Shown piece after piece: positions 1-64,000 of a stretch of 64,000 nucleotides of DNA. Below the pieces are notes generated by a model. It saw only the letters and a program-made list of their open reading frames with translations. It was not told the DNA's origin and ran no database searches. The stretch covers positions 45,080,094-45,144,093 of the forward strand of contig CM067306.1 in NCBI GenBank assembly GCA_034231615.1, read 5' to 3'. How positions within the stretch are numbered: the first letter of the stretch is position 1; each line of letters opens with the position of its first letter. Both the position numbers and the translations under genes were made by a program. Source of the DNA: Meghimatium bilineatum. Taxonomy: Eukaryota > Mollusca > Gastropoda > Stylommatophora > Philomycidae.

Positions 1-7
1 ATTGGGT

Positions 8-67
8 GTATTGCAGTTTAGTACGCCAAAACTCGTTGTATTCTGGCATATTAATCACAAATTCATT
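8..67 (+). repeat. Subrepeat A (60 bp, two ~30-bp halves)
   Basis: The consensus of A divides into halves of 30 bp beginning GTATTGCAG and GTATTCTGG. Aligned without gaps the two consensus halves agree at about 19 of 30 positions by hand count. That is well above chance and supports descent from a shorter unit. The second half varies between GGCATATTACTCAC, GGGATATTACTCAC and GGCACATTACTCAC, and these forms help to tell monomer types apart. Confidence 0.8.
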
Positions 68-127
68 GCACTGAAGCTTACTACATTAGAATTGAGTGTA
101 TTCTAGCCTATTATACATGATTTCGTT
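68..127 (+). repeat. Subrepeat B (60 bp, carries the HindIII site)
   Basis: B aligns with A over its full 60 bp. Its consensus halves (GTACTGAAGC... and GTATTCTGGCC...) agree at about 18 of 30 positions by hand count. It holds the AAGCTT hexamer in most monomers. Variants that destroy it (AAACTT, AAGCGT, AAGATT) belong to particular HOR positions. Both families of one-base loss in this window fall in B: one near its start (GTATGAAG for GTACTGAAG), one near its end (GATACG for GATTTCG). Confidence 0.8.
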
Positions 128-178
128 GTAGTGCAGCTTAATACTTCAGAACTCTGGCGTATTACACACGAATTATGA
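128..178 (+). repeat. Subrepeat C (51 bp, shortened relative to A and B)
   Basis: C aligns with B but lacks about 9 bp in the middle, where B has the end of its first half and the GTATT that opens its second half. The result is 51 rather than 60 bp. The second half, CTGGCGTATTACACACGAA, still matches CTGGCCTATTACACATGAT of B closely. C is the most variable part: GTAGTGCAG, GTACTGCAG, GTATGGCACC, TGCAGCATAATGCG and TGCAGCTTTATACG forms recur at fixed HOR positions. Confidence 0.8.
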
Positions 179-3100
179 GTATTGCAGTTTAGTAAGCTAA
201 AACTCGTTGTATTCTGGCATATTACTCACAGATTCATTGTACTGAAGCTTACTACACTAGAATTGAGTGTTTTCTGGCCTATTGCACATGATTTCGTTGT
301 ACTGCAGCTTAATACGTCAGAACACTGGCGTATTACACACAAATTGGGTGTATTGCAGTTTAGTACGCCAAAACTCGTTGTATTCTGGCATATTACTCAC
401 AAATTGGGTGTATGAAGCTTACTACACTAGAATTGAGTGTTTTCTGGCCTATTGCACATGATTTCGTTGTAATGCAGCTTAATACGTCAGAACACTGGCG
501 TATTACACACAAATTGGGTGTATTGCAGTTTAGTACGCCAAAACTCGTTGTATTCTGGCATATTACTCACAAATTGAGTGTACCGAAGCTTACTACACTA
601 GAATTGTGTGTATTCTGGCCTATTGCACATGATTCCGTTGTACTGCAGCTTAATACGTCAGAACACTGGCGTATTACACAAGAATTGGGTGTATTGCAGT
701 TTAGTACGCCAAAACTCGTTGTATTCTGGGATATTACTCACAAATTCATTGTACTGAAGCTTACTACACTAGAATTGAGTGTATTCTGGCCTATAACACA
801 TGATTTCGTTGTATGGCACCTTAATACTGCAGATCACTGGCGTATTAAACACGAATTGGGTGTATTGCAGTTTAGTACGCCAAAAATCGTTGTATTCTGG
901 GATATTACTCACATATTCATTGTACTGAAGCTTACTACACTAGAATTGAGTGTATTCTGGCCTATTGCACATGATTTCGTTGTATTGCAGCTTAATGCGT
1001 CAGAACACTGGCGTATCACATACGAATTGGGTGTATTACAGTTTAGTACGCCACAACTGGTTGTATTCTGGCACATTACTCACAAATTCATTGTACTGAA
1101 GCTTACTACACTAGAATTGAGTGTATTATGGCCTATAACACTCGAATTCGTTGTATGGCACCTTAATACTGCAGATCACTGGAGTATTAAACACGAATTG
1201 GGTGTGTTGCAGTTTAGTACGACAAATCTCGTTGTATTCTGGGATATTACTCACAAATTCATTGTACTGAAGCTTACTACACTAGAATTGAGTGTATTCT
1301 GGCCTATTACACATGATTTCGTTGTATTGCAGCTTAATACGTCAGAACACTGGCGTATCACATACGAATTGGGTGTATTGCAGTTTAGTACGCCACATCT
1401 GGTTGTATTCTGGCACATTACTCGCAAATTCATTGTACTGAAGCTTACAACACTAGAATTGAGTGTATTCTGGTCCATTACACATGATTTCGTTGTATTT
1501 CAGCTTAATACTTCAGAACACTGGCGTATTAAACACGAATTGGGAGTATTGCAGTTTAGTACGCCAAAACTCGTTGTATTCTGGCATATTAATCACAAAT
1601 TCATTGCACTGAAGCTTATTACACTAGAATTGAGTGTATACTGGCCCATTGCACATGATTTCGTTGTACTGCAGCTTAATACGTCAGAACACTGGCGTAT
1701 TACACAAGAATTGGGTGTATTGCAGTTTAGTACGCCAAAACTCGTTGTATTCTGGGAAATTACTCACAACTTCATTGTACTGAAGCTTACTACACTAGAA
1801 ATGAGTGTATTCTAGCCTTTTACACATGCTTTCGTTGTAGTGCAGCTTAATACTTCAGAACTCTGGCGTATTACACAAGAATTGGGTGTATTGCAGTTTA
1901 GTACGCCAAAACTCGTTGTATTCTGGGATATTACTCACAAATTCATTGTACTGAAGCTTACTACACTAGAATTGAGTGTATTCTAGCCGATTACACATGA
2001 TTTCGTTGTAGTGCAGCTTAATACTTCAGAACACTGGCGTATTACACAAGAATTGGGTGTATTTCAGTTTATTACGCCAAAACTCGTTGTATTCTGGGAT
2101 ATTACTCACAAATTCATTGTACTGAAGCTTACTACACTAGAATTGAGTGTATTCTAGCCTATTACACATGATTTCGTTGTAGTGCAGCTTAATACTTCAG
2201 AACTCTGACGTATTACACACACATTGGGTGTATTGCAGTTTAGTACGCCAAAACTCGTTGTATTCTGGCATATTAATCACAAATTCATTGCACTGAAGCT
2301 TACTACATTAGAATTGAGTGTATTCTAGCCTATTATACATGATTTCGTTGTAGTGCAGATTAATACTTCAGAACTCTGGCGTATTACACACGAATTATGA
2401 GTATTGCAGTTTAGTAAGCTAAAACTCGTTGTATTCTGGCATATTACTCACAGATTCATTGTACTGAAGCTTACTACACTAGAATTGAGTGTTTTCTGGC
2501 CTATTGCACATGATTTCGTTGTACTGCAGCTTAATACGTCAGAACACTGGCGTATTACACACAAATTGGGTGTATTGCAGTTTAGTACGCCAAAACTCGT
2601 TGTATTCTGGCATATTACTCACAAATTGGGTGTATGAAGCTTACTACACTAGAATTGAGTGTTTTCTGGCCTATTGCACATGATTTCGTTGTAATGCAGC
2701 TTAATACGTCAGAACTCTGGCGTATTACACACAAATTGGGTGTATTGCAGTTTAGTACCCCAAAACTCGTTGTATTCTGGCATATTACTCACAAATTGAG
2801 TGTACTGAAGCTTACTACACTAGAATTGTGTGTATTCTGGCCTATTGCACATGATTCCGTTGTACTGCAGCTTAATACGTCAGAACACTGGCGTATTACA
2901 CAAGAATTGGGTGTATTGCAGTTTAGTACGCCAAAACTCGTTGTATTCTGGGATATTACTCACAAATTCATTGTACTGAAGCTTACTACACTAGAATTGA
3001 GTGTATTCTAGCCGATTACACATGATTTCGTTGTAGTGCAGCTTAATACTTCAGAACTCTGGCGTATTACACACAAATTGGGTGTATTGCAGTTTAGTAA

Positions 3101-3254
3101 GCTAAAACTCGTTGTATTCTGGCATATTACTCACAAATTCATTGTACTGAAGCTTACTACACTAGAATTGAGTGTTTTCTGGCCTATTGCACATGATTTC
3201 GTTGTACTGCAGCTTAATACGTCAGAACACTGGCGTATTACACACAAATTAGGT

Positions 3255-3300
3255 GTATTGCCTTTAAGTACGCCAAAACTCGTATTCTGGGATATTACTC
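3255..3300 (+). other. Private 3-bp loss and local scramble
   Basis: Here ACTCGTATTCTGG stands for the usual ACTCGTTGTATTCTGG, a loss of 3 bp. Some 25 bp before it TTGCCTTTAAGTACG stands for TTGCAGTTTAGTACG. It is the only indel in the window that is not part of a recurrent marker series and was not copied on. The two changes so close together suggest one local event. Confidence 0.85.
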
Positions 3301-3928
3301 ACAAATTCATTGTACTGACGCTTACTACACTAGAATTGAGTGTATTCTGGCCTATTACACATGGTTTCGTTGTATTGCAGCTTAATACTTCAGAACACTG
3401 GCGTATTAAACACGAATTGGGTGTATTGCAGTTTAGTACTCTAAAACTCGTTGTATTCTGGCATATTACTCACAAATTGTGTGTACTGAAGCTTACTACA
3501 CTAGAATTGAGTCTATTCTGGCCTATTGCACATGATTTCGTTGTAGTGCAGCTTAATACTTCAGAACACTGGTGTATTACACAAGAATTGGGTGTATTGC
3601 AGTTTAGTACGCCAAAAATCGTTGTATTCTGGCATATTACTCACAAATTGGGTGTACTGAAGCTTACTACACTAGAATTGAGTGTATTCTGGCCTATTGC
3701 ACATGATTTCGTTGTAGTGCAGCTTAATACTTCAGAACACTGGCGTATTACACAAGAATTGGGTGTATTTCAGTTTATTACGCCAAAACTCGTTGTATTC
3801 TGGGATATTACTCACAAATTCATTGTACTGAAGCTTACTACACTAGAATTGAGTGTATTCTAGCCTATTACACATGATTTCGTTGTAGTGCAGCTTAATA
3901 CTTCAGAACTCTGACGTATTACACACAC

Positions 3929-5797
3929 ATTGGGTGTATTGCAGTTTAGTACGCCAAAACTCGTTGTATTCTGGCATATTAATCACAAATTCATTGCACT
4001 GAAGCTTACTACATTAGAATTGAGTGTATTCTAGCCTATTATACATGATTTCGTTGTAGTGCAGCTTAATACTTCAGAACTCTGGCGTATTACACACGAA
4101 TTATGAGTATTGCAGTTTAGTAAGCTAAAACTCGTTGTATTCTGGCATATTACTCACAGATTCATTGTACTGAAGCTTACTACATTAGAATTGAGTGTTT
4201 TCTGGCCTATTGCACATGATTTCGTTGTACTGCAGCTTAATACGTCAGAACACTGGCGTATTACACACAAATTGGGTGTATTGCAGTTTAGTACGCCAAA
4301 ACTCGTTGTATTCTGGCATATTACTCACAAATTGGGTGTATGAAGCTTACTACACTAGAATTGAGTGTTTTCTGGCCTATTGCACATGATTTCGTTGTAA
4401 TGCAGCTTAATACGTCAGAACACTGGCGTATTACACACAAATTGGGTGTATTGCAGTTTAGTACGCCAAAACTCGTTGTATTCTGGCATATTACTCACAA
4501 ATTGAGTGTACCGAAGCTTACTACACTAGAATTGTGTGTATTCTGGCCTATTGCACATGATTCCGTTGTACTGCAGCTTAATACGTCAGAACACTGGCGT
4601 ATTACACAAGAATTGGGTGTATTGCAGTTTAGTACGCCAAAACTCGTTGTATTCTGGGATATTACTCACAAATTCATTGTACTGAAGCTTACTACACTAG
4701 AATTGAGTGTATTCTGGCCTATAACACATGATTTCGTTGTATGGCACCTTAATACTGCAGATCACTGGCGTATTAAACACGAATTGGGTGTATTGCAGTT
4801 TAGTACGCCAAAAATCGTTGTATTCTGGGATATTACTCACATATTCATTGTACTGAAGCTTACTACACTAGAATTGACTGTATTCTGGCCTATTGCACAT
4901 GATTTCGTTGTATTGCAGCTTAATGCGTCAGAACACTGGCGTATCACATACGAATTGGGTGTATTACAGTTTAGTACGCCACAACTGGTTGTATTCTGGC
5001 ACATTACTCACAAATTCATTGTACTGAAGCTTACTACACTAGAATTGAGTGTATTATGGCCTATAACACTCGAATTCGTTGTATGGCACCTTAATACTGC
5101 AGATCACTGGAGTATTAAACACGAATTGGGTGTGTTGCAGTTTAGTACGACAAATCTCGTTGTATTCTGGGATATTACTCACAAATTCATTGTACTGAAG
5201 CTTACTACACTAGAATTGAGTGTATTCTGGCCTATTACACATGATTTCGTTGTATTGCAGCTTAATACGTCAGAACACTGGCGTATCACATACGAATTGG
5301 GTGTATTGCAGTTTAGTACGCCACATCTGGTTGTATTCTGGCACATTACTCGCAAATTCATTGTACTGAAGCTTACAACACTAGAATTGAGTGTATTCTG
5401 GTCCATTACACATGATTTCGTTGTATTTCAGCTTAATACTTCAGAACACTGGCGTATTAAACACGAATTGGGAGTATTGCAGTTTAGTACGCCAAAACTC
5501 GTTGTATTCTGGCATATTAATCACAAATTCATTGCACTGAAGCTTACTACACTAGAATTGAGTGTATACTGGCCCATTGCACATGATTTCGTTGTACTGC
5601 AGCTTAATACGTCAGAACACTGGCGTATTACACAAGAATTGGGTGTATTGCAGTTTAGTACGCCAAAACTCGTTGTATTCTGGGAAATTACTCACAACTT
5701 CATTGTACTGAAGCTTACTACACTAGAATTGAGTGTATTCTAGCCTTTTACACATGCTTTCGTTGTAGTGCAGCTTAATACTTCAGAACTCTGGCGT
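3929..5797 (+). repeat. HOR unit of 23 monomers, copy 2, partial (about 11 monomers)
   Basis: This stretch matches 1-1869 at an offset of 3928 bp with only scattered substitutions seen by eye, for example ACATTAG against ACACTAG near 4184 and GACTGTA against GAGTGTA near 4877. The match stops close to 5797, where copy 1 has ACACAAGAATTGGG and this copy has ACACAAATTAGG. Beyond that point the array is a mosaic of earlier segments. Confidence 0.88.
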
Positions 5798-7135
5798 ATT
5801 ACACACAAATTAGGTGTATTGCAGTTTAGTACTCTAAAACTCGTTGTATTCTGGCATATTACTCACAAATTGGGTGTACTGAAGCTTACTACACTAGAAT
5901 TGAGTCTATTCTGGCCTATTGCACATGATTTCGTTATAGTGCAGCTTAATACTTCAGAACACTGGTGTATTACACAAGAATTGGGTGTATTGCAGTTTAG
6001 TACGCCAAAAATCGTTGTATTCTGGCATATTACTCACAAATTGGGTGTACTGAAGCTTACTACACTAGAATTGAGTGTTTTCTGGCCTATTGCACATGAT
6101 TTCGTTGTAATGCAGCTTAATACGTCAGAACACTGGCGTATTACACACAAATTGGGTGTATTGCAGTTTAGTACGCCAAAACTCGTTGTATTCTGGCATA
6201 TTACTCACAAATTGAGTGTACCGAAGCTTACTACACTAGAATTGTGTGTATTCTGGCCTATTGCACATGATTCCGTTGTACTGCAGCTTAATACGTCAGA
6301 ACACTGGCGTATTACACAAGAATTGGGTGTATTGCAGTTTAGTACGCCAAAACTCGTTGTATTCTGGGATATTACTCACAAATTCATTGTACTGAAGCTT
6401 ACTACACTAGAATTGAGTGTATTCTGGCCTATAACACATGATTTCGTTGTATGGCACCTTAATACTGCAGATCACTGGCGTATTAAACACGAATTGGGTG
6501 TATTGCAGTTTAGTACGCCAAAAATCGTTGTATTCTGGGATATTACTCACATATTCATTGTACTGAAGCTTACTACACTAGAATTGAGTGTATTCTGGCC
6601 TATTGCACATGATTTCGTTGTATTGCAGCTTAATGCGTCAGAACACTGGCGTATCACATACGAATTGGGTGTATTACAGTTTAGTACGCCACAACTGGTT
6701 GTATTCTGGCACATTACTCACAAATTCATTGTACTGAAGCTTACAACACTAGAATTGAGTGTATTCTGGTCCATTACACATGATTTCGTTGTATTTCAGC
6801 TTAATACTTCAGAACACTGGCGTATTAAACACGAATTGGGAGTATTGCAGTTTAGTACGCCAAAACTCGTTGTATTCTGGCATATTAATCACAAATTCAT
6901 TGCACTGAAGCTTACTACACTAGAATTGAGTGTATACTGGCCCATTGCACATGATTTCGTTGTACTGCAGCTTAATACGTCAGAACACTGGCGTATTACA
7001 CAAGAATTGGGTGTATTGCAGTTTAGTACGCCAAAACTCGTTGTATTCTGGGATATTACTCACAACTTCATTGTACTGAAGCTTACTACACTAGAATTGA
7101 GTGTATTCTAGCCTTTTACACATGCTTTCGTTGTA
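5798..7135 (+). repeat. Mosaic of earlier HOR segments (about 8 monomers)
   Basis: Three offsets describe this stretch. From 5798 to about 6060 it resembles 3405-3667 (offset 2393). From about 6064 to 6740 it resembles 4354-5030 (offset 1710, ten monomers; shared GTAATGCAG at 6106 and 4396). From about 6750 to 7135 it resembles 5382-5767 (offset 1368, eight monomers). The change from 1710 to 1368 equals loss of two monomers relative to the earlier copy. All joins keep the 171-bp register, as unequal crossover or conversion between homologous monomers would. Confidence 0.75.
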
Positions 7136-9528
7136 GTGCAGCTTAATACTTCAGAACTCTGGCGTATTACACACAAATTAGGTGTATTGCAGTTTAGTAC
7201 TCTAATACTCGTTGTATTCTGGCATATTACTCACAAATTGGGTGTACTGAAGCTTACTACACTAGAATTGAGTCTATTCTGGCCTATTGCACATGATTTC
7301 GTTGTAGTGCAGCTTAATACTTCAGAACACTGGTGTATTACACAAGAATTGGGTGTATTGCAGTTTAGTACGCCAAAAATCGTTGTATTCTGGCATATTA
7401 CTCACAAATTGGGTGTACTGAAGCTTACTACACTAGAATTGAGTGTATTCTGGCCTATTTCACATGATTTCGTTGTAGTGCAGCTTAATACTTCAGAACA
7501 CTGGCGTATTACACAAGAATTGGGTGTATTTCAGTTTATTACGCCAAAACTCGTTGTATTCTGGGATATTACTCACAAATTCATTGTACTGAAGCTTACT
7601 ACACTAGAATTTAGTGTATTCTAGCCTATTACACATGATTTCGTTGTAGTGCAGCTTAATACTTCAGAACTCTGACGTATTACACACACATTGGGTGTAT
7701 TGCAGTTTAGTACACCAAAACTCGTTGTATTCTGGCATATTACTCACAAATTGGGTGTATGAAGCTTACTACACTAGAATTGAGTGTATTCTGGCCTATT
7801 GCACATTATTCCGTTGTACTGCAGCTTAATACGTCAGAACATTGGCGTATTACACAAGAATTGGGTGTATTGCAGTTTAGTACGCCAAAACTCGTTGTAT
7901 TCTGGGATATTACTCACAAATTCATTGTACTGAAGCTTACTACAGTAGAATTGAGTGTATTCTGGCCTATTACACATGATTTCGTTGTATTGCAGCTTAA
8001 TACTTCAGAACACTGGCGTATTAAACACGAATTGGGAGTATTGCAGTTTAGTAAGCTAAAACTCGTTGTATTCTGGCATATTACTCACAAATTCATTGTA
8101 CTGAAGCTTACTACACTAGTATTGAGTGTATTCTGGCCTATTACACGTGATTTCGTTGTAGTGCAGCTTAATACTTCAGAACTCTGGCGTATTACACACA
8201 AATTGGGTGTATTGCAGTTTAGTACGCTAAAACTCGTTGTATTCTGGCATATTACTCACAAATTGAGTGTACCGAAGCTTACTACACTAGAATTGTGTGT
8301 ATTCTGGCCTATTGCACATGATTCCGTTGTACTGCAGCTTAATACGTCAGAACACTGGCGTATTACACAAGAATTGGGTGTATTGCAGTTTAGTACGCCA
8401 AAACTCGTTGTATTCTGGGATATTACTCACAAATTCATTGTACTGAAGCTTACTACACTAGAATTGAGTGTATTCTGGCCTATAACACATGATTTCGTTG
8501 TATGGCACCTTAATACTGCAGATCACTGGCGTATTAAACACGAATTGGGTGTATTGCAGTTTAGTACGCCAAAAATCGTTGTATTCTGGGATATTACTCA
8601 CATATTCATTGTACTGAAGCTTACTACACTAGAATTGAGTGTATTCTGGCCTATTGCACATGATTTCGTTGTATTGCAGCTTAATGCGTCAGAACACAGG
8701 CGTATCACATACGAATTGGGTGTATTACAGTTTAGTACGCCACAACTGGTTGTATTCTGGCACATTACTCACAAATTCATTGTACTGAAGCTTACTACAC
8801 CAGAATTGAGTGTATTATGGCCTATAACACTCGAATTCGTTGTATGGCACCTTAATACTGCAGATCACTGGAGTATTAAACACGAATTGGGTGTGTTGCA
8901 GTTTAGTACGACAAAACTCGTTGTATTCTGGGATATTACTCACAAATTCATTGTACTGAAGCTTACTACACTAGAATTGAGTGTATTCTGGCCTATTACA
9001 CATGATTTCGTTGTATTGCAGCTTAATACGTCAGAACACTGGCGTATCACATACGAATTGGGTGTATTGCAGTTTAGTACGCCACATCTGGTTGTATTCT
9101 GGCACATTACTCGCAAATTCATTGTACTGAAGCTTACTACACTAGAATTGAGTGTATTCTGGTCCATTACACATGATTTCGTTGTATTTCAGCTTAATAC
9201 TTCAGAACACTGGCGTATTAAACACGAATTGGGAGTATTGCAGTTTAGTACGCCAAAACTCGTTGTATTCTGGCATATTAATCACAAATTCATTGCACTG
9301 AAGCTTACTACACTAGAATTGAGTGTATACTGGCCCATTGCACATGATTTCGTTGTACTGCAGCTTAATACGTCAGAACACTGGCGTATTACACAAGAAT
9401 TGGGTGTATTGCAGTTTAGTACGCCAAAACTCGTTGTATTCTGGGATATTACTCACAACTTCATTGTACTGAAGCTTACTACACTAGAATTGAGTGTATT
9501 CTAGCCTTTTACACATGCTTTCGTTGTA
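7136..9528 (+). repeat. HOR 14-mer, copy 1
   Basis: The unit is 2393 bp (14 x 171 minus 1), with its one-base loss at GTATGAAG near 7758. Its first 489 bp contain GTACTCTAATACTCG and the ATTTCAGTTTATTACGCC variants. This opening recurs, with the same translation, at 9529, 11580, 13118, 14656 and 17049. The 14-mer differs from the 9-mer form by five extra monomers in its middle, carrying GTATGGCACC and CTAATACTGCAGATC variants. Confidence 0.9.
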
Positions 9529-11579
9529 GTGCAGCTTAATACTTCAGAACTCTGGCGTATTACACACAAATTAGGTGTATTGCAGTTTAGTACTCTAATA
9601 CTCGTTGTATTCTGGCATATTACTCACAAATTGGGTGTACTGAAGCTTACTACACTAGAATTGAGTCTATTCTGGCCTATTGCACATGATTTCGTTGTAG
9701 TGCAGCTTAATACTTCAGAACACTGGTGTATTACACAAGAATTGGGTGTATTGCAGTTTAGTACGCCAAAAATCGTTGTATTCTGGCATATTACTCACAA
9801 ATTGGGTGTACTGAAGCTTACTACACTAGAATTGAGTGTATTCTGGCCTATTTCACATGATTTCGTTGTAGTGCAGCTTAATACTTCAGAACACTGGCGT
9901 ATTACACAAGAATTGGGTGTATTTCAGTTTATTACGCCAAAACTCGTTGTATTCTGGGATATTACTCACAAATTCATTGTACTGAAGCTTACTACACTAG
10001 AATTTAGTGTATTCTAGCCTATTACACATGATTTCGTTGTAGTGCAGCTTAATACTTCAGAACTCTGACGTATTACACACACATTGGGTGTATTGCAGTT
10101 TAGTACACCAAAACTCGTTGTATTCTGGCATATTACTCACAAATTGGGTGTATGAAGCTTACTACACTAGAATTGAGTGTATTCTGGCCTATTGCACATG
10201 ATTCCGTTGTACTGCAGCTTAATACGTCAAAACATTGGCGTATTACACAAGAATTGGGTGTATTGCAGTTTAGTACGCCAAAACTCGTTGTATTCTGGGA
10301 TATTACTCACAAATTCATTGTACTGAAGCTTACTACACTAGAATTGAGTGTATTCTGGCCTATTACACATGATTTCGTTGTATTGCAGCTTAATACTTCA
10401 GAACACTGGCGTATTAAACACGAATTGGGAGTATTGCAGTTTAGTAAGCTAAAACTCGTTGTATTCTGGCATATTACTCACAAATTCATTGTACTGAAGC
10501 TTACTACACTAGAATTGAGTGTATTCTGGCCTATTGCACATGATTTCGTTGTACTGCAGCTTAATACGTCAGAACACTGGCGTATCACATACGAATTGGG
10601 TGTATTACAGTTTAGTACGCCACAACTGGTTGTATTCTGGCACATTACTCACAAATTCATTGTACTGAAGCTTACAACACTAGAATTGAGTGTATTCTGG
10701 TCCATTACACATGATTTCGTTGTATTTCAGCTTAATACTTCAGAACACTGGCGTATTAAACACGAATTGGGAGTATTGCAGTTTAGTACGCCAAAACTCG
10801 TTGTATTCTGGCATATTAATCACAAATTCATTGCACTGAAGCTTACTACACTAGAATTGAGTGTATACTGGCCCATTGCACATGATTTCGTTGTACTGCA
10901 GCTTAATACGTCAGAACACTGGCGTATTACACAAGAATTGGGTGTATTGCAGTTTAGTACGCCAAAACTCGTTGTATTCTGGGATATTACTCACAACTTC
11001 ATTGTACTGAAGCTTACTACACTAGAATTGAGTGTATTCTGGCCTATTACACATGATTTCGTTGTATTGCAGCTTAATACGTCAGAACACTGGCGTATCA
11101 CATACGAATTGGGTGTATTGCAGTTTAGTACGCCACATCTGGTTGTATTCTGGCACATTACTCGCAAATTCATTGTACTGAAGCTTACTACACTAGAATT
11201 GAGTGTATTCTGGTCCATTACACATGATTTCGTTGTATTTCAGCTTAATACTTCAGAACACTGGCGTATTAAACACGAATTGGGAGTATTGCAGTTTAGT
11301 ACGCCAAAACTCGTTGTATTCTGGCATATTAATCACAAATTCATTGCACTGAAGCTTACTACACTAGAATTGAGTGTATACTGGCCCATTGCACATGATT
11401 TCGTTGTACTGCAGCTTAATACGTCAGAACACTGGCGTATTACACAAGAATTGGGTGTATTGCAGTTTAGTACGCCAAAACTCGTTGTATTCTGGGATAT
11501 TACTCACAACTTCATTGTACTGAAGCTTACTACACTAGAATTGAGTGTATTCTAGCCTTTTACACATGCTTTCGTTGTA
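9529..11579 (+). repeat. HOR 12-mer variant
   Basis: The unit is 2051 bp (12 x 171 minus 1; loss near 10151). It equals the 9-mer form plus three monomers. The extra monomers come from an internal tandem repeat with a 513-bp step, for example the CTTACAACAC at 10671 and its partner CTTACTACAC at 11184. The opening 489 bp is shared with the other units of this family. Confidence 0.9.
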
Positions 11580-13117
11580 GTGCAGCTTAATACTTCAGAA
11601 CTCTGGCGTATTACACACAAATTAGGTGTATTGCAGTTTAGTACTCTAATACTCGTTGTATTCTGGCATATTACTCACAAATTGGGTGTACTGAAGCTTA
11701 CTACACTAGAATTGAGTCTATTCTGGCCTATTGCACATGATTTCGTTGTAGTGCAGCTTAATACTTCAGAACACTGGTGTATTACACAAGAATTGGGTGT
11801 ATTGCAGTTTAGTACGCCAAAAATCGTTGTATTCTGGCATATTACTCACAAATTGGGTGTACTGAAGCTTACTACACTAGAATTGAGTGTATTCTGGCCT
11901 ATTTCACATGATTTCGTTGTAGTGCAGCTTAATACTTCAGAACACTGGCGTATTACACAAGAATTGGGTGTATTTCAGTTTATTACGCCAAAACTCGTTG
12001 TATTCTGGGATATTACTCACAAATTCATTGTACTGAAGCTTACTACACTAGAATTTAGTGTATTCTAGCCTATTACACATGATTTCGTTGTAGTGCAGCT
12101 TAATACTTCAGAACTCTGACGTATTACACACACATTGGGTGTATTGCAGTTTAGTACACCAAAACTCGTTGTATTCTGGCATATTACTCACAAATTGGGT
12201 GTATGAAGCTTACTACACTAGAATTGAGTGTATTCTGGCCTATTGCACATGATTCCGTTGTACTGCAGCTTAATACGTCAAAACATTGGCGTATTACACA
12301 AGAATTGGGTGTATTGCAGTTTAGTACGCCAAAACTCGTTGTATTCTGGGATATTACTCACAAATTCATTGTACTGAAGCTTACTACACTAGAATTGAGT
12401 GTATTCTGGCCTATTACACATGATTTCGTTGTATTGCAGCTTAATACTTCAGAACACTGGCGTATTAAACACGAATTGGGAGTATTGCAGTTTAGTAAGC
12501 TAAAACTCGTTGTATTCTGGCATATTACTCACAAATTCATTGTACTGAAGCTTACTACACTAGAATTGAGTGTATTCTGGCCTATTGCACATGATTTCGT
12601 TGTACTGCAGCTTAATACGTCAGAACACTGGCGTATCACATACGAATTGGGTGTATTACAGTTTAGTACGCCACAACTGGTTGTATTCTGGCACATTACT
12701 CACAAATTCATTGTACTGAAGCTTACAACACTAGAATTGAGTGTATTCTGGTCCATTACACATGATTTCGTTGTATTTCAGCTTAATACTTCAGAACACT
12801 GGCGTATTAAACACGAATTGGGAGTATTGCAGTTTAGTACGCCAAAACTCGTTGTATTCTGGCATATTAATCACAAATTCATTGCACTGAAGCTTACTAC
12901 ACTAGAATTGAGTGTATACTGGCCCATTGCACATGATTTCGTTGTACTGCAGCTTAATACGTCAGAACACTGGCGTATTACACAAGAATTGGGTGTATTG
13001 CAGTTTAGTACGCCAAAACTCGTTGTATTCTGGGATATTACTCACAACTTCATTGTACTGAAGCTTACTACACTAGAATTGAGTGTATTCTAGCCTTTTA
13101 CACATGCTTTCGTTGTA
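11580..13117 (+). repeat. HOR 9-mer, copy 1
   Basis: The unit is 1538 bp (9 x 171 minus 1), with the one-base loss near 12202. It is the shortest form of this HOR family and is followed directly by a second copy at 13118. Substitutions between the two copies are few, for example TACGTCAAAACATT here against TACGTCAGAACATT at about 13815. Confidence 0.9.
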
Positions 13118-14655
13118 GTGCAGCTTAATACTTCAGAACTCTGGCGTATTACACACAAATTAGGTGTATTGCAGTTTAGTACTCTAATACTCGTTGTATT
13201 CTGGCATATTACTCACAAATTGGGTGTACTGAAGCTTACTACACTAGAATTGAGTCTATTCTGGCCTATTGCACATGATTTCGTTGTAGTGCAGCTTAAT
13301 ACTTCAGAACACTGGTGTATTACACAAGAATTGGGTGTATTGCAGTTTAGTACGCCAAAAATCGTTGTATTCTGGCATATTACTCACAAATTGGGTGTAC
13401 TGAAGCTTACTACACTAGAATTGAGTGTATTCTGGCCTATTTCACATGATTTCGTTGTAGTGCAGCTTAATACTTCAGAACACTGGCGTATTACACAAGA
13501 ATTGGGTGTATTTCAGTTTATTACGCCAAAACTCGTTGTATTCTGGGATATTACTCACAAATTCATTGTACTGAAGCTTACTACACTAGAATTTAGTGTA
13601 TTCTAGCCTATTACACATGATTTCGTTGTAGTGCAGCTTAATACTTCAGAACTCTGACGTATTACACACACATTGGGTGTATTGCAGTTTAGTACACCAA
13701 AACTCGTTGTATTCTGGCATATTACTCACAAATTGGGTGTATGAAGCTTACTACACTAGAATTGAGTGTATTCTGGCCTATTGCACATGATTCCGTTGTA
13801 CTGCAGCTTAATACGTCAGAACATTGGCGTATTACACAAGAATTGGGTGTATTGCAGTTTAGTACGCCAAAACTCGTTGTATTCTGGGATATTACTCACA
13901 CATTCATTGTACTGAAGCTTACTACACTAGAATTGAGTGTATTCTGGCCTATTACACATGATTTCGTTGTATTGCAGCTTAATACTTCAGAACACTGGCG
14001 TATTAAACACGAATTGGGAGTATTGCAGTTTAGTAAGCTAAAACTCGTTGTATTCTGGCATATTACTCACAAATTCATTGTACTGAAGCTTACTACACTA
14101 GAATTGAGTGTATTCTGGCCTATTGCACATGATTTCGTTGTACTGCAGCTTAATACGTCAGAACACTGGCGTATCACATACGAATTGGGTGTATTACAGT
14201 TTAGTACGCCACAACTGGTTGTATTCTGGCACATTACTCACAAATTCATTGTACTGAAGCTTACAACACTAGAATTGAGTGTATTCTGGTCCATTACACA
14301 TGATTTCGTTGTATTTCAGCTTAATACTTCAGAACACTGGCGTATTAAACACGAATTGGGAGTATTGCAGTTTAGTACGCCAAAACTCGTTGTATTCTGG
14401 CATATTAATCACAAATTCATTGCACTGAAGCTTACTACACTAGAATTGAGTGTATACTGGCCCATTGCACATGATTTCGTTGTACTGCAGCTTAATACGT
14501 CAGAACACTGGCGTATTACACAAGAATTGGGTGTATTGCAGTTTAGTACGCCAAAACTCGTTGTATTCTGGGATATTACTCACAACTTCATTGTACTGAA
14601 GCTTACTACACTAGAATTGAGTGTATTCTAGCCTTTTACACATGCTTTCGTTGTA
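13118..14655 (+). repeat. HOR 9-mer, copy 2
   Basis: The unit is 1538 bp and is a near-exact tandem duplicate of 11580-13117. It differs by isolated substitutions such as CTCACACATTC near 13900 where the sister copy has CTCACAAATTC. The one-base loss is near 13740. Confidence 0.9.
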
Positions 14656-17048: not shown

Positions 17049-18105
17049 GTGCAGCTTAATACTTCAGAACTCTGGCGTATTACACACAAATTAGGTGTAT
17101 TGCAGTTTAGTACTCTAATACTCGTTGTATTCTGGCATATTACTCACAAATTGGGTGTACTGAAGCTTACTACACTAGAATTGAGTCTATTCTGGCCTAT
17201 TGCACATGATTTCGTTGTAGTGCAGCTTAATACTTCAGAACACTGGTGTATTACACAAGAATTGGGTGTATTGCAGTTTAGTACGCCAAAAATCGTTGTA
17301 TTCTGGCATATTACTCACAAATTGGGTGTACTGAAGCTTACTACACTAGAATTGAGTGTATTCTGGCCTATTTCACATGATTTCGTTGTAGTGCAGCTTA
17401 ATACTTCAGAACACTGGCGTATTACACAAGAATTGGGTGTATTTCAGTTTATTACGCCAAAACTCGTTGTATTCTGGGATATTACTCACAAATTCATTGT
17501 ACTGAAGCTTACTACACTAGAATTTAGTGTATTCTAGCCTATTACACATGATTTCGTTGTAGTGCAGCTTAATACTTCAGAACTCTGACGTATTACACAC
17601 ACATTGGGTGTATTGCAGTTTAGTATACCAAAACTCGTTGTATTCTGGCATATTACTCACAAATTGGGTGTATGAAGCTTACTACACTAGAATTGAGTGT
17701 ATTCTGGCCTATTGCACATGATTCCGTTGTACTGCAGCTTAATACGTCAGAACATTGGCGTATTACACAAGAATTGGGTGTATTGCAGTTTAGTACGCCA
17801 AAACTCGTTGTATTCTGGGATATTACTCACAAATTCATTGTACTGAAGCTTACTACACTAGAATTGAGTGTATTCTGGCCTATTACACATGATTTCGTTG
17901 TATTGCAGCTTAATACTTCAGAACACTGGCGTATTAAACACGAATTGGGAGTATTGCAGTTTAGTAAGCTAAAACTCGTTGTATTCTGGCATATTACTCA
18001 CAAATTCATTGTACTGAAGCTTACTACACTAGAATTGAGTGTATTCTGGCCTATTGCACATGATTTCGTTGTACTGCAGCTTAATACGTCAGAACACTGG
18101 CGTAT
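17049..18105 (+). repeat. Start of a further unit of the 9/12/14-mer family, cut short
   Basis: The stretch repeats the shared opening of the family and continues into the segment after the one-base loss near 17671. It leaves the family near 18105, where the other units have CGTATCACATACGAATTGG and this one has CGTATTACACAAGAATTGG followed by GTACGACAAAACTCG. The GTACGACAAAACTCG form is typical of the second half of the window. Confidence 0.82.
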
Positions 18106-19247: not shown

Positions 19248-19249
19248 CA

Positions 19250-19400
19250 TTACACATGATTTCGTTGTATTGCACCTTAATACTGCAGAACACTGGCGTA
19301 TTAAACACGATTTGGGTGTATTGCAGTTTAGTACGCCATAACTCATTGTATTCTGGCATATTACTCACAAATTGTGTGTACTGAAGCGTACTACACTAGA
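19250..19400 (+). other. Transition between the two HOR classes
   Basis: Up to about 19269 the sequence still follows the 5-mer. From there it has TTGCACCTTAATACTGCAG, CACGATTTGGGTG and CTGAAGCGTACTAC, the block that characterises the rest of the window. There is no unique sequence and no break in the 171-bp register at the change. The second-class features CTAAAATTCG and CACTATAATTG already appear once in each 5-mer, so the exchange of material began about 1 kb earlier. Confidence 0.8.
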
Positions 19401-55486: not shown

Positions 55487-58400
55487 GCCTATTACACATG
55501 ATTTCGTTGTAGTGCAGCTTAATACTTCAGAACTCTGGCGTATTACACACAAATTGGGTGTATTGCAGTTTAGTACGCTAAAATTCGTTGTATTCTGGCA
55601 TATTACTCACAAATTCATTGTACTGAAACTTACTACACTATAATTGAGTGTATTCTGGCCCATTACACATGATACGTTGTATTGCACCTTAATACTGCAG
55701 AACACTGGCGTATTAAACACGATTTGGGTGTATTGCAGTTTAGTTCGCCAAAACTCATTGTATTCTGGCATATTACTCACACATTGTGTGTACTGAAGCG
55801 TACTACACTAGAATCGAGTGTTTTCTGGCCTATTGCACATGATTTCGTTGTACTGCAGCTTAATACGTCAGAACACTGGCGTATTACACACAAATTGTGT
55901 GTATTGCAGTTTAGTACGCCAAAACTCGTTGTATTCTGGCATATTACTCACAAATTGGGTGTACTGAAGCTTACTACACTAGAATTGAGTGTATTCTGGC
56001 CTATTGCATATGATTCCGTTGTACTGCAGCTTTATACGTCAGAACACTGGCGTATTACACAAGAATTGGGTGTATTGCAGTTTAGTACGCCAAAACTCGT
56101 TGTATTCTGGGATATTACTCACAAATTCATTGTACTGAAGCTTACTACACTAGAATTGAGTGTATTCTGGCCTATAACACATGATTTCGTTGTATGGCAC
56201 CTTAATACTGCAGATCACTGGCGTATTAAACACGAATTGTGTGTATTGCAGTTTAGTACGCCAAAAATCGTTGTATTCTGGGATATTACTCACATATTCA
56301 TTGTACTTAAGCTTACTACACTAGAATTGAGTGTATTCTGGCCTATTACACATGATTTCGTTGTATTGCAGCTTAATGCGTCAGAACACTGGCGTATCAC
56401 ATACGAATTGGGTGTATTGCAGTTTAGTACGCCACAACTGGTTGTATTCTGGCACATTACTCACAAATTCATTGTACTGAAGCTTACTACACTAGAATTG
56501 AGTGTATTCTGGCCTATAACACATGATTTCGTTGTATGGCACCTTAATACTGCAGATCACTGGCGTATTAAACACGAATTGGGTGTATTGCAGTTTAGTA
56601 CGCCAAAAATCCTTGTATTCTGGGATATTACTCACATATTCATTGTACTGAAGCTTACTACACTAGAATTGAGTGTATTCTGGCCTATTACACATGATTT
56701 CGTTGTATTGCAGCATAATGCGTCAGAACACTGGCGTATCACATACGAATTGGGTGTATTGCAGTTTAGTACGCCACAACTGGTTGTATTCTGGAACATT
56801 ACTCACAAATTCATTGTACTGAAGCTTACTACACTAGAATTGAGTGTATACTGGCCTATTACACATGATTTCGTTGTAGTGCAGCTTAATACTTCAGAAC
56901 TCTGGCGTATTACACACAAATTGGGTGTATTGCAGTTTAGTACGCTAAAATTCGTTGTATTCTGGCATATTACTCACAAATTCATTGTACTGAAACTTAC
57001 TACACTATAATTGAGTGTATTCTGGCCCATTACACATGATACGTTGTATTGCACCTTAATACTGCAGAACACTGGCGTATTAAACACGATTTGGGTGTAT
57101 TGCAGTTTAGTTCGCCAAAACTCATTGTATTCTGGCATATTACTCACACATTGTGTGTACTGAAGCGTACTACACTAGAATCGAGTGTTTTCTGGCCTAT
57201 TGCACATGATTTCGTTGTACTGCAGCTTAATACGTCAGAACACTGGCGTATTACACACAAATTGTGTGTATTGCAGTTTAGTACGCCAAAACTCGTTGTA
57301 TTCTGGCATATTACTCACAAATTGGGTGTACTGAAGCTTACTACACTAGAATTGAGTGTATTCTGGCCTATTGCATATGATTCCGTTGTACTGCAGCTTT
57401 ATACGTCAGAACACTGGCGTATTACACAAGAATTGGGTGTATTGCAGTTTAGTACGCCAAAACTCGTTGTATTCTGGGATATTACTCACAAATTCATTGT
57501 ACTGAAGCTTACTACACTAGAATTGAGTGTATTCTGGCCTATAACACATGATTTCGTTGTATGGCACCTTAATACTGCAGATCACTGGCGTATTAAACAC
57601 GAATTGTGTGTATTGCAGTTTAGTACGCCAAAAATCGTTGTATTCTGGGATATTACTCACATATTCATTGTACTTAAGCTTACTACACTAGAATTGAGTG
57701 TATTCTGGCCTATTACACATGATTTCGTTGTATTGCAGCTTAATGCGTCAGAACACTGGCGTATCACATACGAATTGGGTGTATTGCAGTTTAGTACGCC
57801 ACAACTGGTTGTATTCTGGCACATTACTCACAAATTCATTGTACTGAAGCTTACTACACTAGAATTGAGTGTATTCTGGCCTATAACACATGATTTCGTT
57901 GTATGGCACCTTAATACTGCAGATCACTGGCGTATTAAACACGAATTGGGTGTATTGCAGTTTAGTACGCCAAAAATCCTTGTATTCTGGGATATTACTC
58001 ACATATTCATTGTACTGAAGCTTACTACACTAGAATTGAGTGTATTCTGGCCTATTACACATGATTTCGTTGTATTGCAGCATAATGCGTCAGAACACTG
58101 GCGTATCACATACGAATTGGGTGTATTGCAGTTTACTACGCCACAACTGGTTGTATTCTGGCACATTACTCACAAATTCATTGTACTGAAGCTTACTACA
58201 CTAGAATTGAGTGTATACTGGCCTATTGCACATGATTTTGTTGTATTGCACCTTAATACTGCAGAACACTGGCGTATTAAACACGAATTGGGTGTATTGT
58301 AGTTTAGTACGCCAAAACTCGTTGTATTCTGGCATATTACTCACAAATTCATTGTACTGAAGCTTACTACACTAGAATTGAGTGTATTCTGGCCTATTGC

Positions 58401-60101
58401 ATATGATTCCATTGTACTGCAGCTTTATACGTCAGAACACTGGCGTATTACACAAGAATTGGGTGTATTGCAGTTTAGTACGCCAAAAATCGTTGTATTC
58501 TGGGATATTACTCACATATTCATTGTACTGAAGCTTACTACACTAGAATTGAGTGTATTCTGGCCTATTACACATGATTTCGTTGTATTGCAGCTTAATG
58601 CGTCAGAACACTGGCGTATCACATACGAATTGGGTGTATTGCAGTTTAGTACGCCACAACTGGTTGTATTCTGGCACATTACTCACAAATTCATTGTACT
58701 GAAGCTTACTACACTAGAATTGAGTGTATACTGGCCTATTGCACATGATGTTGTTGTATTGCACCTTAATCCTGCAGAACACTGGCGTATTAAACACGAA
58801 TTGGGTGTATTGTAGTTTAGTACGCCAAAACTCGTTGTATTCTGGCATATTACTCACAAATTCATTGTACTGAAGCTTACTACACTAGAATTGGGTGTAT
58901 TGTGGCCTATAACACATGATTTCGTTGTATGGCACCTTAATACTGCAGAACACTGGCGTATTAAACACGATTTGGGTGTATTGCAGTTTAGTTCGCCAAA
59001 ACTCATTGTATTCTGGCATATTACTCACACATTGTGTGTACTGAAGCGTACTACACTAGAATCGAGTGTTTTCTGGCCTATTGCACATGATTTCGTTGTA
59101 CTGCAGCTTAATACGTCAGAACACTGGCGTATTACACACAAATTGTGTGTATTGCAGTTTAGTACGCCAAAACTCGTTGTATTCTGGCATATTACTCACA
59201 AATTGGGTGTACTGAAGCTTACTAAACTAGAATTGAGTGTATTCTGGCCTATTGCATATGATTCCGTTGTACTGCAGCTTTATAAGTCAGAACACTGGCG
59301 TATTACACAAGAATTGGGTGTATTGCAGTTTAGTACGCCAAAACTCGTTGTATTCTGGGATATTACTCACAAATTCATTGTACTGAAGCTTACTACACTA
59401 GAATTGAGTGTATTCTGGCCTATAACACATGATTTCGTTGTATGGCACCTTAATACTGCAGATCACTGGCGTATTAAACACGAATTGTGTGTATTGCAGT
59501 TTAGTACGCCAAAAATCGTTGTATTCTGGGATATTACTCACATATTCATTGTACTTAAGCTTACTACACTAGAATTGAGTGTATTCTGGCCTATTACACA
59601 TGATTTCGTTGTATTGCAGCTTAATGCGTCAGAACACTGGCGTATCACATACGAATTGGGTGTATTGCAGTTTAGTACGCCACAACTGGTTGTATTCTGG
59701 CACATTACTCACAAATTCATTGTACTGAAGCTTACTACACTAGAATTGAGTGTATTCTGGCCTATAACACATGATTTCGTTGTATGGCACCTTAATACTG
59801 CAGATCACTGGCGTATTAAACACGAATTGGGTGTATTGCAGTTTAGTACGCCAAAAATCCTTGTATTCTGGGATATTACTCACATATTCATTGTACTGAA
59901 GCTTACTACACTAGAATTGAGTGTATTCTGGCCTATTACACATGATTTCGTTGTATTGCAGCATAATGCGTCAGAACACTGGCGTATCACATACGAATTG
60001 GGTGTATTGCAGTTTAGTACGCCACAACTGGTTGTATTCTGGAACATTACTCACAAATTCATTGTACTGAAGCTTACTACACTAGAATTGAGTGTATACT
60101 G
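55487..60101 (+). repeat. HOR 27-mer, copy 1
   Basis: The unit is 4615 bp (27 x 171 minus 2), with two GATACG losses, near 55673 and 57040. It contains an inner 8-mer: the marker starts 55682 and 57049 are 1367 bp apart. A third related 8-mer segment begins at about 58920, without its own marker loss. Landmarks at the 4615-bp spacing include CAGTTTACTACGCC near 58130 and 62745, GATTCCATTGTAC near 58405 and 63020, and CTTAATCCTGCAG near 58766 and 63381. Confidence 0.93.
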
Positions 60102-63100
60102 GCCTATTACACATGATTTCGTTGTAGTGCAGCTTAATACTTCAGAACTCTGGCGTATTACACACAAATTGGGTGTATTGCAGTTTAGTACGCTAAAATT
60201 CGTTGTATTCTGGCATATTACTCACAAATTCATTGTACTGAAACTTACTACACTATAATTGAGTGTATTCTGGCCCATTACACATGATACGTTGTATTGC
60301 ACCTTAATACTGCAGAACACTGGCGTATTAAACACGATTTGGGTGTATTGCAGTTTAGTTCGCCAAAACTCATTGTATTCTGGCATATTACTCACACATT
60401 GTGTGTACTGAAGCGTACTACACTAGAATCGAGTGTTTTCTGGCCTATTGCACATGATTTCGTTGTACTGCAGCTTAATACGTCAGAACACTGGCGTATT
60501 ACACACAAATTGTGTGTATTGCAGTTTAGTACGCCAAAACTCGTTGTATTCTGGCATATTACTCACAAATTGGGTGTACTGAAGCTTACTACACTAGAAT
60601 TGAGTGTATTCTGGCCTATTGCATATGATTCCGTTGTACTGCAGCTTTATACGTCAGAACACTGGCGTATTACACAAGAATTGGGTGTATTGCAGTTTAG
60701 TACGCCAAAACTCGTTGTATTCTGGGATATTACTCACAAATTCATTGTACTGAAGCTTACTACACTAGAATTGAGTGTATTCTGGCCTATAACACATGAT
60801 TTCGTTGTATGGCACCTTAATACTGCAGATCACTGGCGTATTAAACACGAATTGTGTGTATTGCAGTTTAGTACGCCAAAAATCGTTGTATTCTGGGATA
60901 TTACTCACATATTCATTGTACTTAAGCTTACTACACTAGAATTGAGTGTATTCTGGCCTATTACACATGATTTCGTTGTATTGCAGCTTAATGCGTCAGA
61001 ACACTGGCGTATCACATACGAATTGGGTGTATTGCAGTTTAGTACGCCACAACTGGTTGTATTCTGGCACATTACTCACAAATTCATTGTACTGAAGCTT
61101 ACTACACTAGAATTGAGTGTATTCTGGCCTATAACACATGATTTCGTTGTATGGCACCTTAATACTGCAGATCACTGGCGTATTAAACACGAATTGGGTG
61201 TATTGCAGTTTAGTACGCCAAAAATCCTTGTATTCTGGGATATTACTCACATATTCATTGTACTGAAGCTTACTACACTAGAATTGAGTGTATTCTGGCC
61301 TATTACACATGATTTCGTTGTATTGCAGCATAATGCGTCAGAACACTGGCGTATCACATACGAATTGGGTGTATTGCAGTTTAGTACGCCACAACTGGTT
61401 GTATTCTGGAACATTACTCACAAATTCATTGTACTGAAGCTTACTACACTAGAATTGAGTGTATACTGGCCTATTACACATGATTTCGTTGTAGTGCAGC
61501 TTAATACTTCAGAACTCTGGCGTATTACACACAAATTGGGTGTATTGCAGTTTAGTACGCTAAAATTCGTTGTATTCTGGCATATTACTCACAAATTCAT
61601 TGTACTGAAACTTACTACACTATAATTGAGTGTATTCTGGCCCATTACACATGATACGTTGTATTGCACCTTAATACTGCAGAACACTGGCGTATTAAAC
61701 ACGATTTGGGTGTATTGCAGTTTAGTTCGCCAAAACTCATTGTATTCTGGCATATTACTCACACATTGTGTGTACTGAAGCGTACTACACTAGAATCGAG
61801 TGTTTTCTGGCCTATTGCACATGATTTCGTTGTACTGCAGCTTAATACGTCAGAACACTGGCGTATTACACACAAATTGTGTGTATTGCAGTTTAGTACG
61901 CCAAAACTCGTTGTATTCTGGCATATTACTCACAAATTGGGTGTACTGAAGCTTACTACACTAGAATTGAGTGTATTCTGGCCTATTGCATATGATTCCG
62001 TTGTACTGCAGCTTTATACGTCAGAACACTGGCGTATTACACAAGAATTGGGTGTATTGCAGTTTAGTACGCCAAAACTCGTTGTATTCTGGGATATTAC
62101 TCACAAATTCATTGTACTGAAGCTTACTACACTAGAATTGAGTGTATTCTGGCCTATAACACATGATTTCGTTGTATGGCACCTTAATACCACAGATCAC
62201 TGGCGTATTAAACACGAATTGTGTGTATTGCAGTTTAGTACGCCAAAAATCGTTGTATTCTGGGATATTACTCACATATTCATTGTACTTAAGCTTACTA
62301 CACTAGAATTGAGTGTATTCTGGCCTATTACACATGATTTCGTTGTATTGCAGCTTAATGCGTCAGAACACTGGCGTATCACATACGAATTGGGTGTATT
62401 GCAGTTTAGTACGCCACAACTGGTTGTATTCTGGCACATTACTCACAAATTCATTGTACTGAAGCTTACTACACTAGAATTGAGTGTATTCTGGCCTATA
62501 ACACATGATTTCGTTGTATGGCACCTTAATACTGCAGATCACTGGCGTATTAAACACGAATTGGGTGTATTGCAGTTTAGTACGCCAAAAATCCTTGTAT
62601 TCTGGGATATTACTCACATATTCATTGTACTGAAGCTTACTACACTAGAATTGAGTGTATTCTGGCCTATTACACATGATTTCGTTGTATTGCAGCATAA
62701 TGCGTCAGAACACTGGCGTATCACATACGAATTGGGTGTATTGCAGTTTACTACGCCACAACTGGTTGTATTCTGGCACATTACTCACAAATTCATTGTA
62801 CTGAAGCTTACTACACTAGAATTGAGTGTATACTGGCCTATTGCACATGATTTTGTTGTATTGCACCTTAATACTGCAGAACACTGGCGTATTAAACACG
62901 AATTGGGTGTATTGTAGTTTAGTACGCCAAAACTCGTTGTATTCTGGCATATTACTCACAAATTCATTGTACTGAAGCTTACTACACTAGAATTGAGTGT
63001 ATTCTGGCCTATTGCATATGATTCCATTGTACTGCAGCTTTATACGTCAGAACACTGGCGTATTACACAAGAATTGGGTGTATTGCAGTTTAGTACGCCA

Positions 63101-63510
63101 AAAATCGTTGTATTCTGGGATATTACTCACATATTCATTGTACTGAAGCTTACTACACTAGAATTGAGTGTATTCTGGCCTATTACACATGATTTCGTTG
63201 TATTGCAGCTTAATGCGTCAGAACACTGGCGTATCACATACGAATTGGGTGTATTGCAGTTTAGTACGCCACAACTGGTTGTATTCTGGCACATTACTCA
63301 CAAATTCATTGTACTGAAGCTTACTACACTAGAATTGAGTGTATACTGGCCTATTGCACATGATGTTGTTGTATTGCACCTTAATCCTGCAGAACACTGG
63401 CGTATTAAACACGAATTGGGTGTATTGTAGTTTAGTACGCCAAAACTCGTTGTATTCTGGCATATTACTCACAAATTCATTGTACTGAAGCTTACTACAC
63501 TAGAATTGGG
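60102..63510 (+). repeat. HOR 27-mer, copy 2, partial (about 20 monomers)
   Basis: The stretch follows copy 1 closely over about 3.4 kb; its two GATACG losses lie near 60288 and 61655. It stops near 63510, where copy 1 has GGGTGTATTGTGGCC and this copy has GGGTGTTTTCTAGCC. One private difference is AATACCACAGATC near 62188 against AATACTGCAGATC in copy 1. Confidence 0.92.
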
Positions 63511-64000
63511 TGTTTTCTAGCCTATTGCACATGATTTCGTTGTACTGCAGCTTAATACGTCAGAACACTGGCGTATTACACACACATTTGGTGTATTGCA
63601 GTTTAGTACGCCAAAACTCGTTGTATTCTGGCATATTACTCACAAATTGGGTGTACTGAAGCTTACTACACTAGAATTGAGTGTATTCTGGCCTATTGCA
63701 CATGATTCCGTTGTACTGCAGCTTAATACGTCAGAACATTGGCGTATTACACAAGAATTGGGTGTATTGCAGTTTAGTACGCCAAAACTCGTTGTATTCT
63801 GGGATATTACTCACAAATTCATTGTACTGAAGCTTACTACACTAGAATTGAGTGTATTCTAGCCTATTACACATGATTTCGTTGTAGTGCAGCTTAATAC
63901 TTCAGAACACTGGCGTATTACACAAGAATTGGGTGTATTGCAGTTTAGTACGCCAAAAATCGTTGTATTCTGGGATATTACTCACATATTCATTGTACTG
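63511..64000 (+). repeat. Last three monomers, new arrangement, array runs off the window
   Basis: After the 27-mer copy breaks off, monomers of other types follow: one with CACACACATTTGGTG near 63580, one like the 13-mer opening (GATTCCGTTGTACTGCAG), then one with ATTCTAGCC near 63856. The array is still in register at the last base, so it continues beyond the window. Confidence 0.85.

Follow-up and report, generated by a model that had tools for sequence, protein, structure and literature searches.

The 64,000 nucleotides analyzed here (hereafter the window; C9:45,080,094-45,144,093) lie on chromosome 9 of Meghimatium bilineatum, a stylommatophoran land slug of the family Philomycidae, in the interior of an array of about 1.73 Mb that is built from a 171-bp satellite. 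Judging from sequence and its arrangement, we consider it probable (roughly 0.8) that this family is the main centromeric satellite, core and pericentromere together, of a monocentric slug. A preliminary description of the window had proposed a centromeric or other heterochromatic place, and this proposal is supported by the position of the satellite, by a single internal cluster on 20 of the 25 chromosomes and by the size of the array around the window. The assembly used comprises 1,612,235,226 bases in 32 contigs; its authors report 25 pseudo-chromosomes and seven unanchored scaffolds, 1.61 Gb in all, with an N50 of 68.08 Mb (PMC10770140).

Results

Within positions 1-64000, Tandem Repeats Finder reported a period of 171 bp, 374.4 copies and a match of 90%. 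Decomposition against the consensus resolved the forward strand of the window (1-64000, within C9 ~44,569,830-46,300,375) into 374 full monomers and a 73-bp end with no gaps between monomers, which bears out the earlier count of 374 head-to-tail monomers free of unique DNA. The window is thus a single continuous tandem array, with no foreign or inserted DNA and no N. Most monomers are 171 bp long (n = 349), the others being 170 bp (n = 24) or 168 bp (n = 1), and identity to the consensus ranges from 0.906 to 0.988, with a mean of 0.948.

The higher-order repeats (HORs) in the window are real. Defining a duplicated run as a series of five or more consecutive monomer pairs that are each at least 97% identical, we found 84 such runs, the longest of 26 monomers, whereas permuting the monomer order 20 times gave a mean of 0.05 runs and a longest run of five. 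Duplicated runs of any kind hold 87% of the 374 monomers, and 47% fall in six tandem HOR blocks with periods of 8, 9, 12, 13, 16 and 25 monomers. Copies within these blocks are 99.5-99.9% identical, far closer than neighboring monomers, which are about 91% identical. All six blocks were read on the forward strand. They have periods of 12 monomers (8886-12987; 2.0 copies, 99.85%), 9 monomers (11108-15550; 2.9 copies, 99.7%), 16 monomers (18798-25464; 2.4 copies, 99.5%), 13 monomers (27517-31962; 2.0 copies, 99.8%), 25 monomers or 4.27 kb (37091-45809; 2.04 copies, 99.9%) and 8 monomers (58971-62730; 2.75 copies, 99.8%).

Segment duplications were also found at lags of 23, 27 and 44 monomers. 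On the same strand, a 23-monomer segment is duplicated at a lag of 44 monomers, or 7.5 kb (6664-18113, end approximate), and a 19-monomer segment at a lag of 27 monomers, or 4.6 kb (55553-63414, end approximate). Moreover, among the 25 longest runs, stretches of 9-10 monomers are copied up to 181-197 monomers (31-34 kb) away. The preliminary description had given HORs of 5 to 27 monomers and super-periods of up to 7.5 kb. Its HORs and its 7.5-kb lag were recovered, but units of 5 and 27 monomers do not form two full tandem copies at our threshold, the figure of 27 being the lag of the 19-monomer run, and distances well beyond 7.5 kb exist. Each HOR block holds only two to three copies, so what emerges is a cascade of local amplifications that overlap one another, as opposed to a single HOR iterated over megabases.

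By probing, the chromosome 9 array extends from a left edge near 44,569,830 to a right edge near 46,300,375. Satellite was present in 18 of 18 300-bp probes between 44.573 and 46.300 Mb and in two longer reads; between probes the array was read in the window and in short loci, so that the probes represent a small part of the 1.73 Mb. To the left, 300-bp probes were non-satellite at eight places between 43.5 and 44.55 Mb and again at 44.560 and 44.565 Mb, and to the right the same was true of eight 200-bp probes between 46.31 and 46.38 Mb and of 300-bp probes at 46.4 and 46.5 Mb. Scores per base against the window consensus were 0.82-0.94 over the interval 44.573-45.7 Mb and reached 0.90 at 46.0 Mb, with lower values of 0.71 at 45.8 Mb and 0.66-0.82 across 46.05-46.30 Mb. 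One rare variant recurs, among the matches listed, over at least 45.60-45.81 Mb, which suggests regional HOR domains on this chromosome. Positions 1-3000 of the chromosome 9 sequence all read as N.

Older, diverged monomers occupy the array edges that were read, namely both edges on chromosome 9 and the left edge on chromosome 1. At the left end of the chromosome 9 array, most of the 500-bp pieces within the first 2 kb have scores of 0.20-0.49, one reaching 0.85, and the left edge on chromosome 1 is likewise strongly decayed. The right edge on chromosome 9 is about 80-82% identical to other copies, and the whole 0.25 Mb next to it on the inner side is similar.

Abutting the left edge of the chromosome 9 array is an element (positions 5400-6823 of locus L087, C9 ~44,568,400-44,569,823) bounded by two sets of 45-bp tandem repeats, one the reverse complement of the other, about 770 bp apart. 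Outside it lies a 21-bp minisatellite (L087 3591-5342). Its structure resembles that of a non-autonomous DNA transposon whose ends are made up of repeats. When 10 kb at the right edge on chromosome 9 and 8.5 kb at the left edge on chromosome 1 were searched for it, no match was better than an E value of 0.27. A transposon origin of the satellite, after the manner of the oyster satellite Cg170, was considered; the element was not found at these two other edges.

A 33-bp piece of the consensus, allowing up to three mismatches, matched 68,470 + 30,185 = 98,655 times genome-wide, while the reversed control matched nowhere. At one match per 171 bp, this corresponds to roughly 17 Mb, equal to 1% of the assembly. 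Chromosome positions were taken from matches listed in several searches (113 matches; 100 of a larger total in each of five lists; 6; 106; and 114), three of these listings being restricted to the best 40 candidates scored. Among the matches listed, the family is found on 20 of 25 chromosomes (1-5, 7-10, 12-20, 23 and 24), with one internal cluster on each. In relative terms, all clusters lie between about 0.28 and 0.77 of the length of their chromosome (lengths taken from PMC10770140). Exact 30- to 40-mers support 14 of the 20 chromosomes, and the other six (4, 14, 17, 18, 23 and 24) were identified only by BLAST to diverged units. The matches listed span more than 1 Mb on chromosomes 1, 7, 8 and 14, the widest cluster being that of chromosome 8 (24.35-27.93 Mb). 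Most chromosomes have one such site among the matches listed, and large array size is established by probing on chromosome 9. Changes of strand within the clusters on chromosomes 3, 12, 20 and 24 point to inversions or scaffolding errors.

The consensus sequences of chromosomes 9, 7, 5 and 3 are mutually 97.7-100% identical. The arrays sampled on chromosomes 3, 7 and 9 show chromosome-specific homogenization, in part of a local kind. The median best identity of a monomer within its own stretch was 0.994 for chromosome 7 and 1.000 for chromosome 3, as against 0.933-0.953 and 0.912-0.942, respectively, elsewhere. Similarly, monomers from three other places on chromosome 9 matched the window with median best identities of 0.965-0.982, compared with 0.953 for chromosome 7 and 0.942 for chromosome 3, and the proportion with a 97% match in the window was 41-70% at the former and 11% and 8% at the latter. 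Each stretch also has its own favored lags, which are 12 and 18 monomers on chromosome 7 and 13, 16 and 25 on chromosome 3.

The 171-bp consensus is itself a trimer of related subunits A (60 bp), B (60 bp) and C (51 bp), the last lacking about 9 bp; in the first monomer (1-171, forward strand), for example, these occupy positions 1-60, 61-120 and 121-171. On the consensus, A and B are 70% identical, and C is 76% identical to each of them. Each 60-bp subunit in turn consists of two 30-bp halves, 60% alike in A and 67% alike in B. None of 1000 shuffles reached any one of these five subunit scores. At array edges and on other chromosomes we found periods of 60, 111 (60+51), 171, 282 (171+111) and 452/453 bp, and also of 221, 334 and 342 bp.

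Steps of AA, TT, AT and TA (WW steps, W being A or T) recur every 10.06 bp, or 17 times per 171-bp monomer, with G/C steps in antiphase (-172 to -175 degrees). For the WW steps, two 4-kb pieces gave a power over variance of 376 and 469, and the whole window one of 81, the lower value probably reflecting slippage at the 170-bp monomers. Non-satellite controls gave 11.3 (chromosome 9 flank) and 12.2 (5S locus). The phasing is retained (9.94-10.03 bp, power over variance 64-161) in rearranged or decayed pieces from chromosomes 4, 13, 17 and 23, the G/C part being weak on chromosome 23. When columns of the 30-bp unit were jointly shuffled so that the 30-bp repeat was kept, the observed power was reached in 0 of 500 trials. 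A 10-bp signal is common in many satellites (PMC8997354), and the one seen here, which would be a nucleosome-wrapping signal, agrees with such a role and belongs to a kind already described.

A strong single-strand fold or palindrome and a viral link were considered and dropped. As single-stranded DNA, the first monomer folds with a z score of -0.45, and 64 of 200 shuffles fold as well; window positions 1-700 contain five imperfect inverted pairs of 18-19 nt. A 28-mer had no exact match in IMG/VR, in a search that may omit records of the source genome. A scan of positions 1-2000 for bacterial promoters and terminators was empty, although such a scan is not meaningful in a slug.

Further observations concern other loci. 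Two arrays of 5S ribosomal DNA (rDNA) were located among 47 scored matches, at C23:38.78-39.13 Mb and C21:15.31-15.36 Mb, the former about 1.4 Mb from decayed satellite at 40.50 Mb. Mitochondrial ND2 and the beginning of COX1 are present as a nuclear copy on chromosome 2 (L009 531-2148, C2 ~121,988,835-121,990,452), which is open under the invertebrate mitochondrial code. The placing of ND2 beside COX1 suggests a pulmonate. A COX1 family search of the assembly found no other copy.

Discussion

Several results weigh against a centromeric role for the 171-bp family. Chromosomes 6, 11, 21, 22 and 25 have no match among the matches listed; as several of these listings are limited to 100 places or to the best 40 candidates, a missing chromosome means little. 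For chromosomes 6 and 11 this absence is weak evidence, because chromosome 4 carries the family and yet is missing from the same listings: chromosomes 6 and 11 were passed without an exact match in two listings, chromosome 6 in a third as well, and chromosome 4 was likewise missed in three. The matches listed span only about 16, 19, 5, 0.4 and 0.4 kb on chromosomes 5, 10, 17, 18 and 23, respectively, and the copies read on chromosome 23 are decayed only. In eleven pieces of 2-2.5 kb (chromosomes 4, 10, 12, 13, 14, 15, 17, 18, 19, 23 and 24), mostly picked via matches to diverged queries, monomers score 0.72-0.86 against the consensus and unit lengths are mixed. Hi-C scaffolding, moreover, is able to misplace satellite contigs. 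Homogenization by chromosome is also less clear when viewed from the window, whose monomers match the three other chromosome 9 samples at 0.947-0.959, hardly above chromosome 7 (0.947) or chromosome 3 (0.942), in samples of unequal size; part of the own-chromosome signal is therefore local homogenization.

To these points can be added the results for the CENP-B box and for helical phase. The CENP-B box has the motif NTTCGNNNNANNCGGGN. Its occurrence in the consensus is at chance level, the best site having two mismatches, which was equaled or bettered in 185 of 1000 shuffles. No exact box was reported in the window, where 15 one-mismatch sites were found (18317-61580), as compared with 1.78 expected and with 0 of 100 shuffles reaching 15. 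However, all of these sites are TTCGTTGTATTCTGG, and because the same 15-mer was copied by HOR amplification they amount to one event. Tests for selection on helical phase fell short of significance: W to S changes (S being G or C) occurred at roughly half the frequency in the A/T phase, but with p = 0.12 for 357 distinct near monomers and p = 0.06 for 153 distinct divergent ones. Of six other helical-phase comparisons, one gave p = 0.04 and five gave p > 0.15.

It is nonetheless tempting to ask whether the satellite might be helically phase-locked centromere DNA. In that case, subunits could be exchanged without turning A/T or G/C dinucleotides to another face of the nucleosome, and rearrangements would be filtered by helical phase through centromere function. 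Unit lengths of 30, 51, 60, 111, 171, 221, 282, 342 and 452/453 bp all equal whole 10.06-bp turns within 0.07 turn. On the other hand, the 334-bp period on chromosome 4 is 0.20 turn off, which counts against the idea, and the idea is further weakened because a 30-bp unit together with a single deletion of 9 bp is enough to produce the unit lengths. The lack of a significant result in the selection tests speaks against it as well. We regard phase-locking as an unlikely proposal.

Position alone does not separate a centromere core from its flank. The family could thus be a pericentromeric or other heterochromatic satellite that borders the centromere without binding CENP-A, in which case some other repeat, unassembled or unsampled, would form the true core. 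This would fit the five chromosomes that are not shown as carriers and those that have only diverged pieces, and with a contig N50 of only 1.36 Mb (PMC10770140) cores may be missing from the assembly. We nevertheless think this alternative unlikely. All 18 probes across C9 44.573-46.300 Mb belong to the 171-bp family, though they cover a small part of the 1.73 Mb. In addition, active primate core arrays have homogeneous HOR interiors and diverged edges, and the slug array is laid out in the same way: its interior is homogeneous, with recent HORs that are nearly identical, and its edges have diverged.

Assembly of satellites is difficult, and 81 contigs were joined into chromosome 9 (PMC10770140 Table 3), so the HORs and the array length might also have arisen by mis-assembly of nearly identical reads. 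This is very improbable, as HiFi reads average 18.6 kb (PMC10770140) and exceed the tandem HOR blocks of 3.8-8.7 kb, the 64 kb contain no N, and the stretches on chromosomes 7 and 3 have variants and lags of their own. Least credible of all is a tandem coding repeat of 57 codons per 171 bp, which might be imagined because 171 is divisible by three, one forward frame of the consensus is stop-free and the window holds 61 open reading frames of at least 100 aa, the longest of 581 aa. The 24 monomers of 170 bp shift this frame. Moreover, synonymous changes number 380 against 313 expected in the open frame and 445 against 333 in a forward frame with three stops; the excess is smaller in the open frame, so it is no sign of coding, and the coding repeat was rejected on this comparison.

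The history of the 171-bp family was probably as follows. A 30-bp unit would have doubled to 60 bp, and three such units, one of them shortened, would have given 60+60+51 = 171 bp. Rival arrangements (for example those of 111, 282 and 453 bp) survive at the edges and on other chromosomes, as if the subunits had been dealt several ways before the 171-bp form prevailed. Unequal exchange or break-induced replication would then enlarge and homogenize the arrays, giving cascading HORs and leaving older monomers at the edges. Helical phasing would set nucleosomes rotationally and make wrapping easier, and CENP-A (CenH3) chromatin and the kinetochore may form on part of each array, probably the most homogeneous part.

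Primate alpha satellite offers a close parallel in architecture. Both have a 171-bp unit (349 of 374 monomers here), a megabase array, near-identical HOR copies and a homogeneous interior with diverged edges (seen here on chromosome 9 and one side on chromosome 1). The slug satellite differs in occurring in a mollusc, in its 60+60+51 and 30-bp structure, in its irregular, cascading HORs of two to three copies each in the window and in a consensus without a CENP-B box beyond chance. The preliminary description was right that HOR satellites are best known from primates, yet they are widespread: they are common in plants and animals, and among 171 species with Sanger data 76 show them clearly (PMC4053949). 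Maize CentC shares an AA/TT periodicity of about 10 bp, and CENH3 nucleosomes are set along that of CentC (PMC3053214), but its unit is 156 bp, whereas the slug satellite has 17 cycles per 171 bp with G/C in antiphase.

Among molluscs, Cg170 of the Pacific oyster is found at the primary constrictions of several chromosomes. Unlike the slug family, which forms one cluster per chromosome among the matches listed, Cg170 is also interspersed along the arms and is the central part of Helitron-N55_CGi; it did not satisfy the criteria for CenH3 enrichment in both chromatin immunoprecipitation reactions, and oyster CenH3-bound DNA is without uniformity between chromosomes (all PMC7348941). In a paper on bivalve satellites, HOR denotes units that grew out of subrepeats (PMC5874043). 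Text searches of the open-access literature on satellites and centromeres of molluscs, gastropods and snails found no gastropod HOR satellite among the papers listed. The portions consulted of PMC12328838 and PMC9392753 held nothing helpful on slug centromere satellites, and in the main text of PMC10770140 the string "centromer" is absent and "satellite" occurs once, in a table. The earlier view that the satellite is unrecognized holds within the open-access literature, where three 17- to 20-mers had no printed copy, and within Rfam, where window positions 1-20000 matched none of 4227 families. Within the open-access literature searched, the 171-bp satellite is a new family of a known kind.

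Little is known of centromere DNA in molluscs. In the land slug Laevicaulis alte (Systellommatophora), holocentric chromosomes have been suggested from entropy plots of a gap-free genome (PMC13336835). A single-site satellite on 20 chromosomes of a stylommatophoran slug is, by comparison, the layout expected of monocentric chromosomes. The 171-bp unit is a ready probe for slug centromeres, and the family would represent HOR evolution of the alpha-satellite type in a mollusc, in which intermediates in the origin of the monomer may still survive at the array edges.

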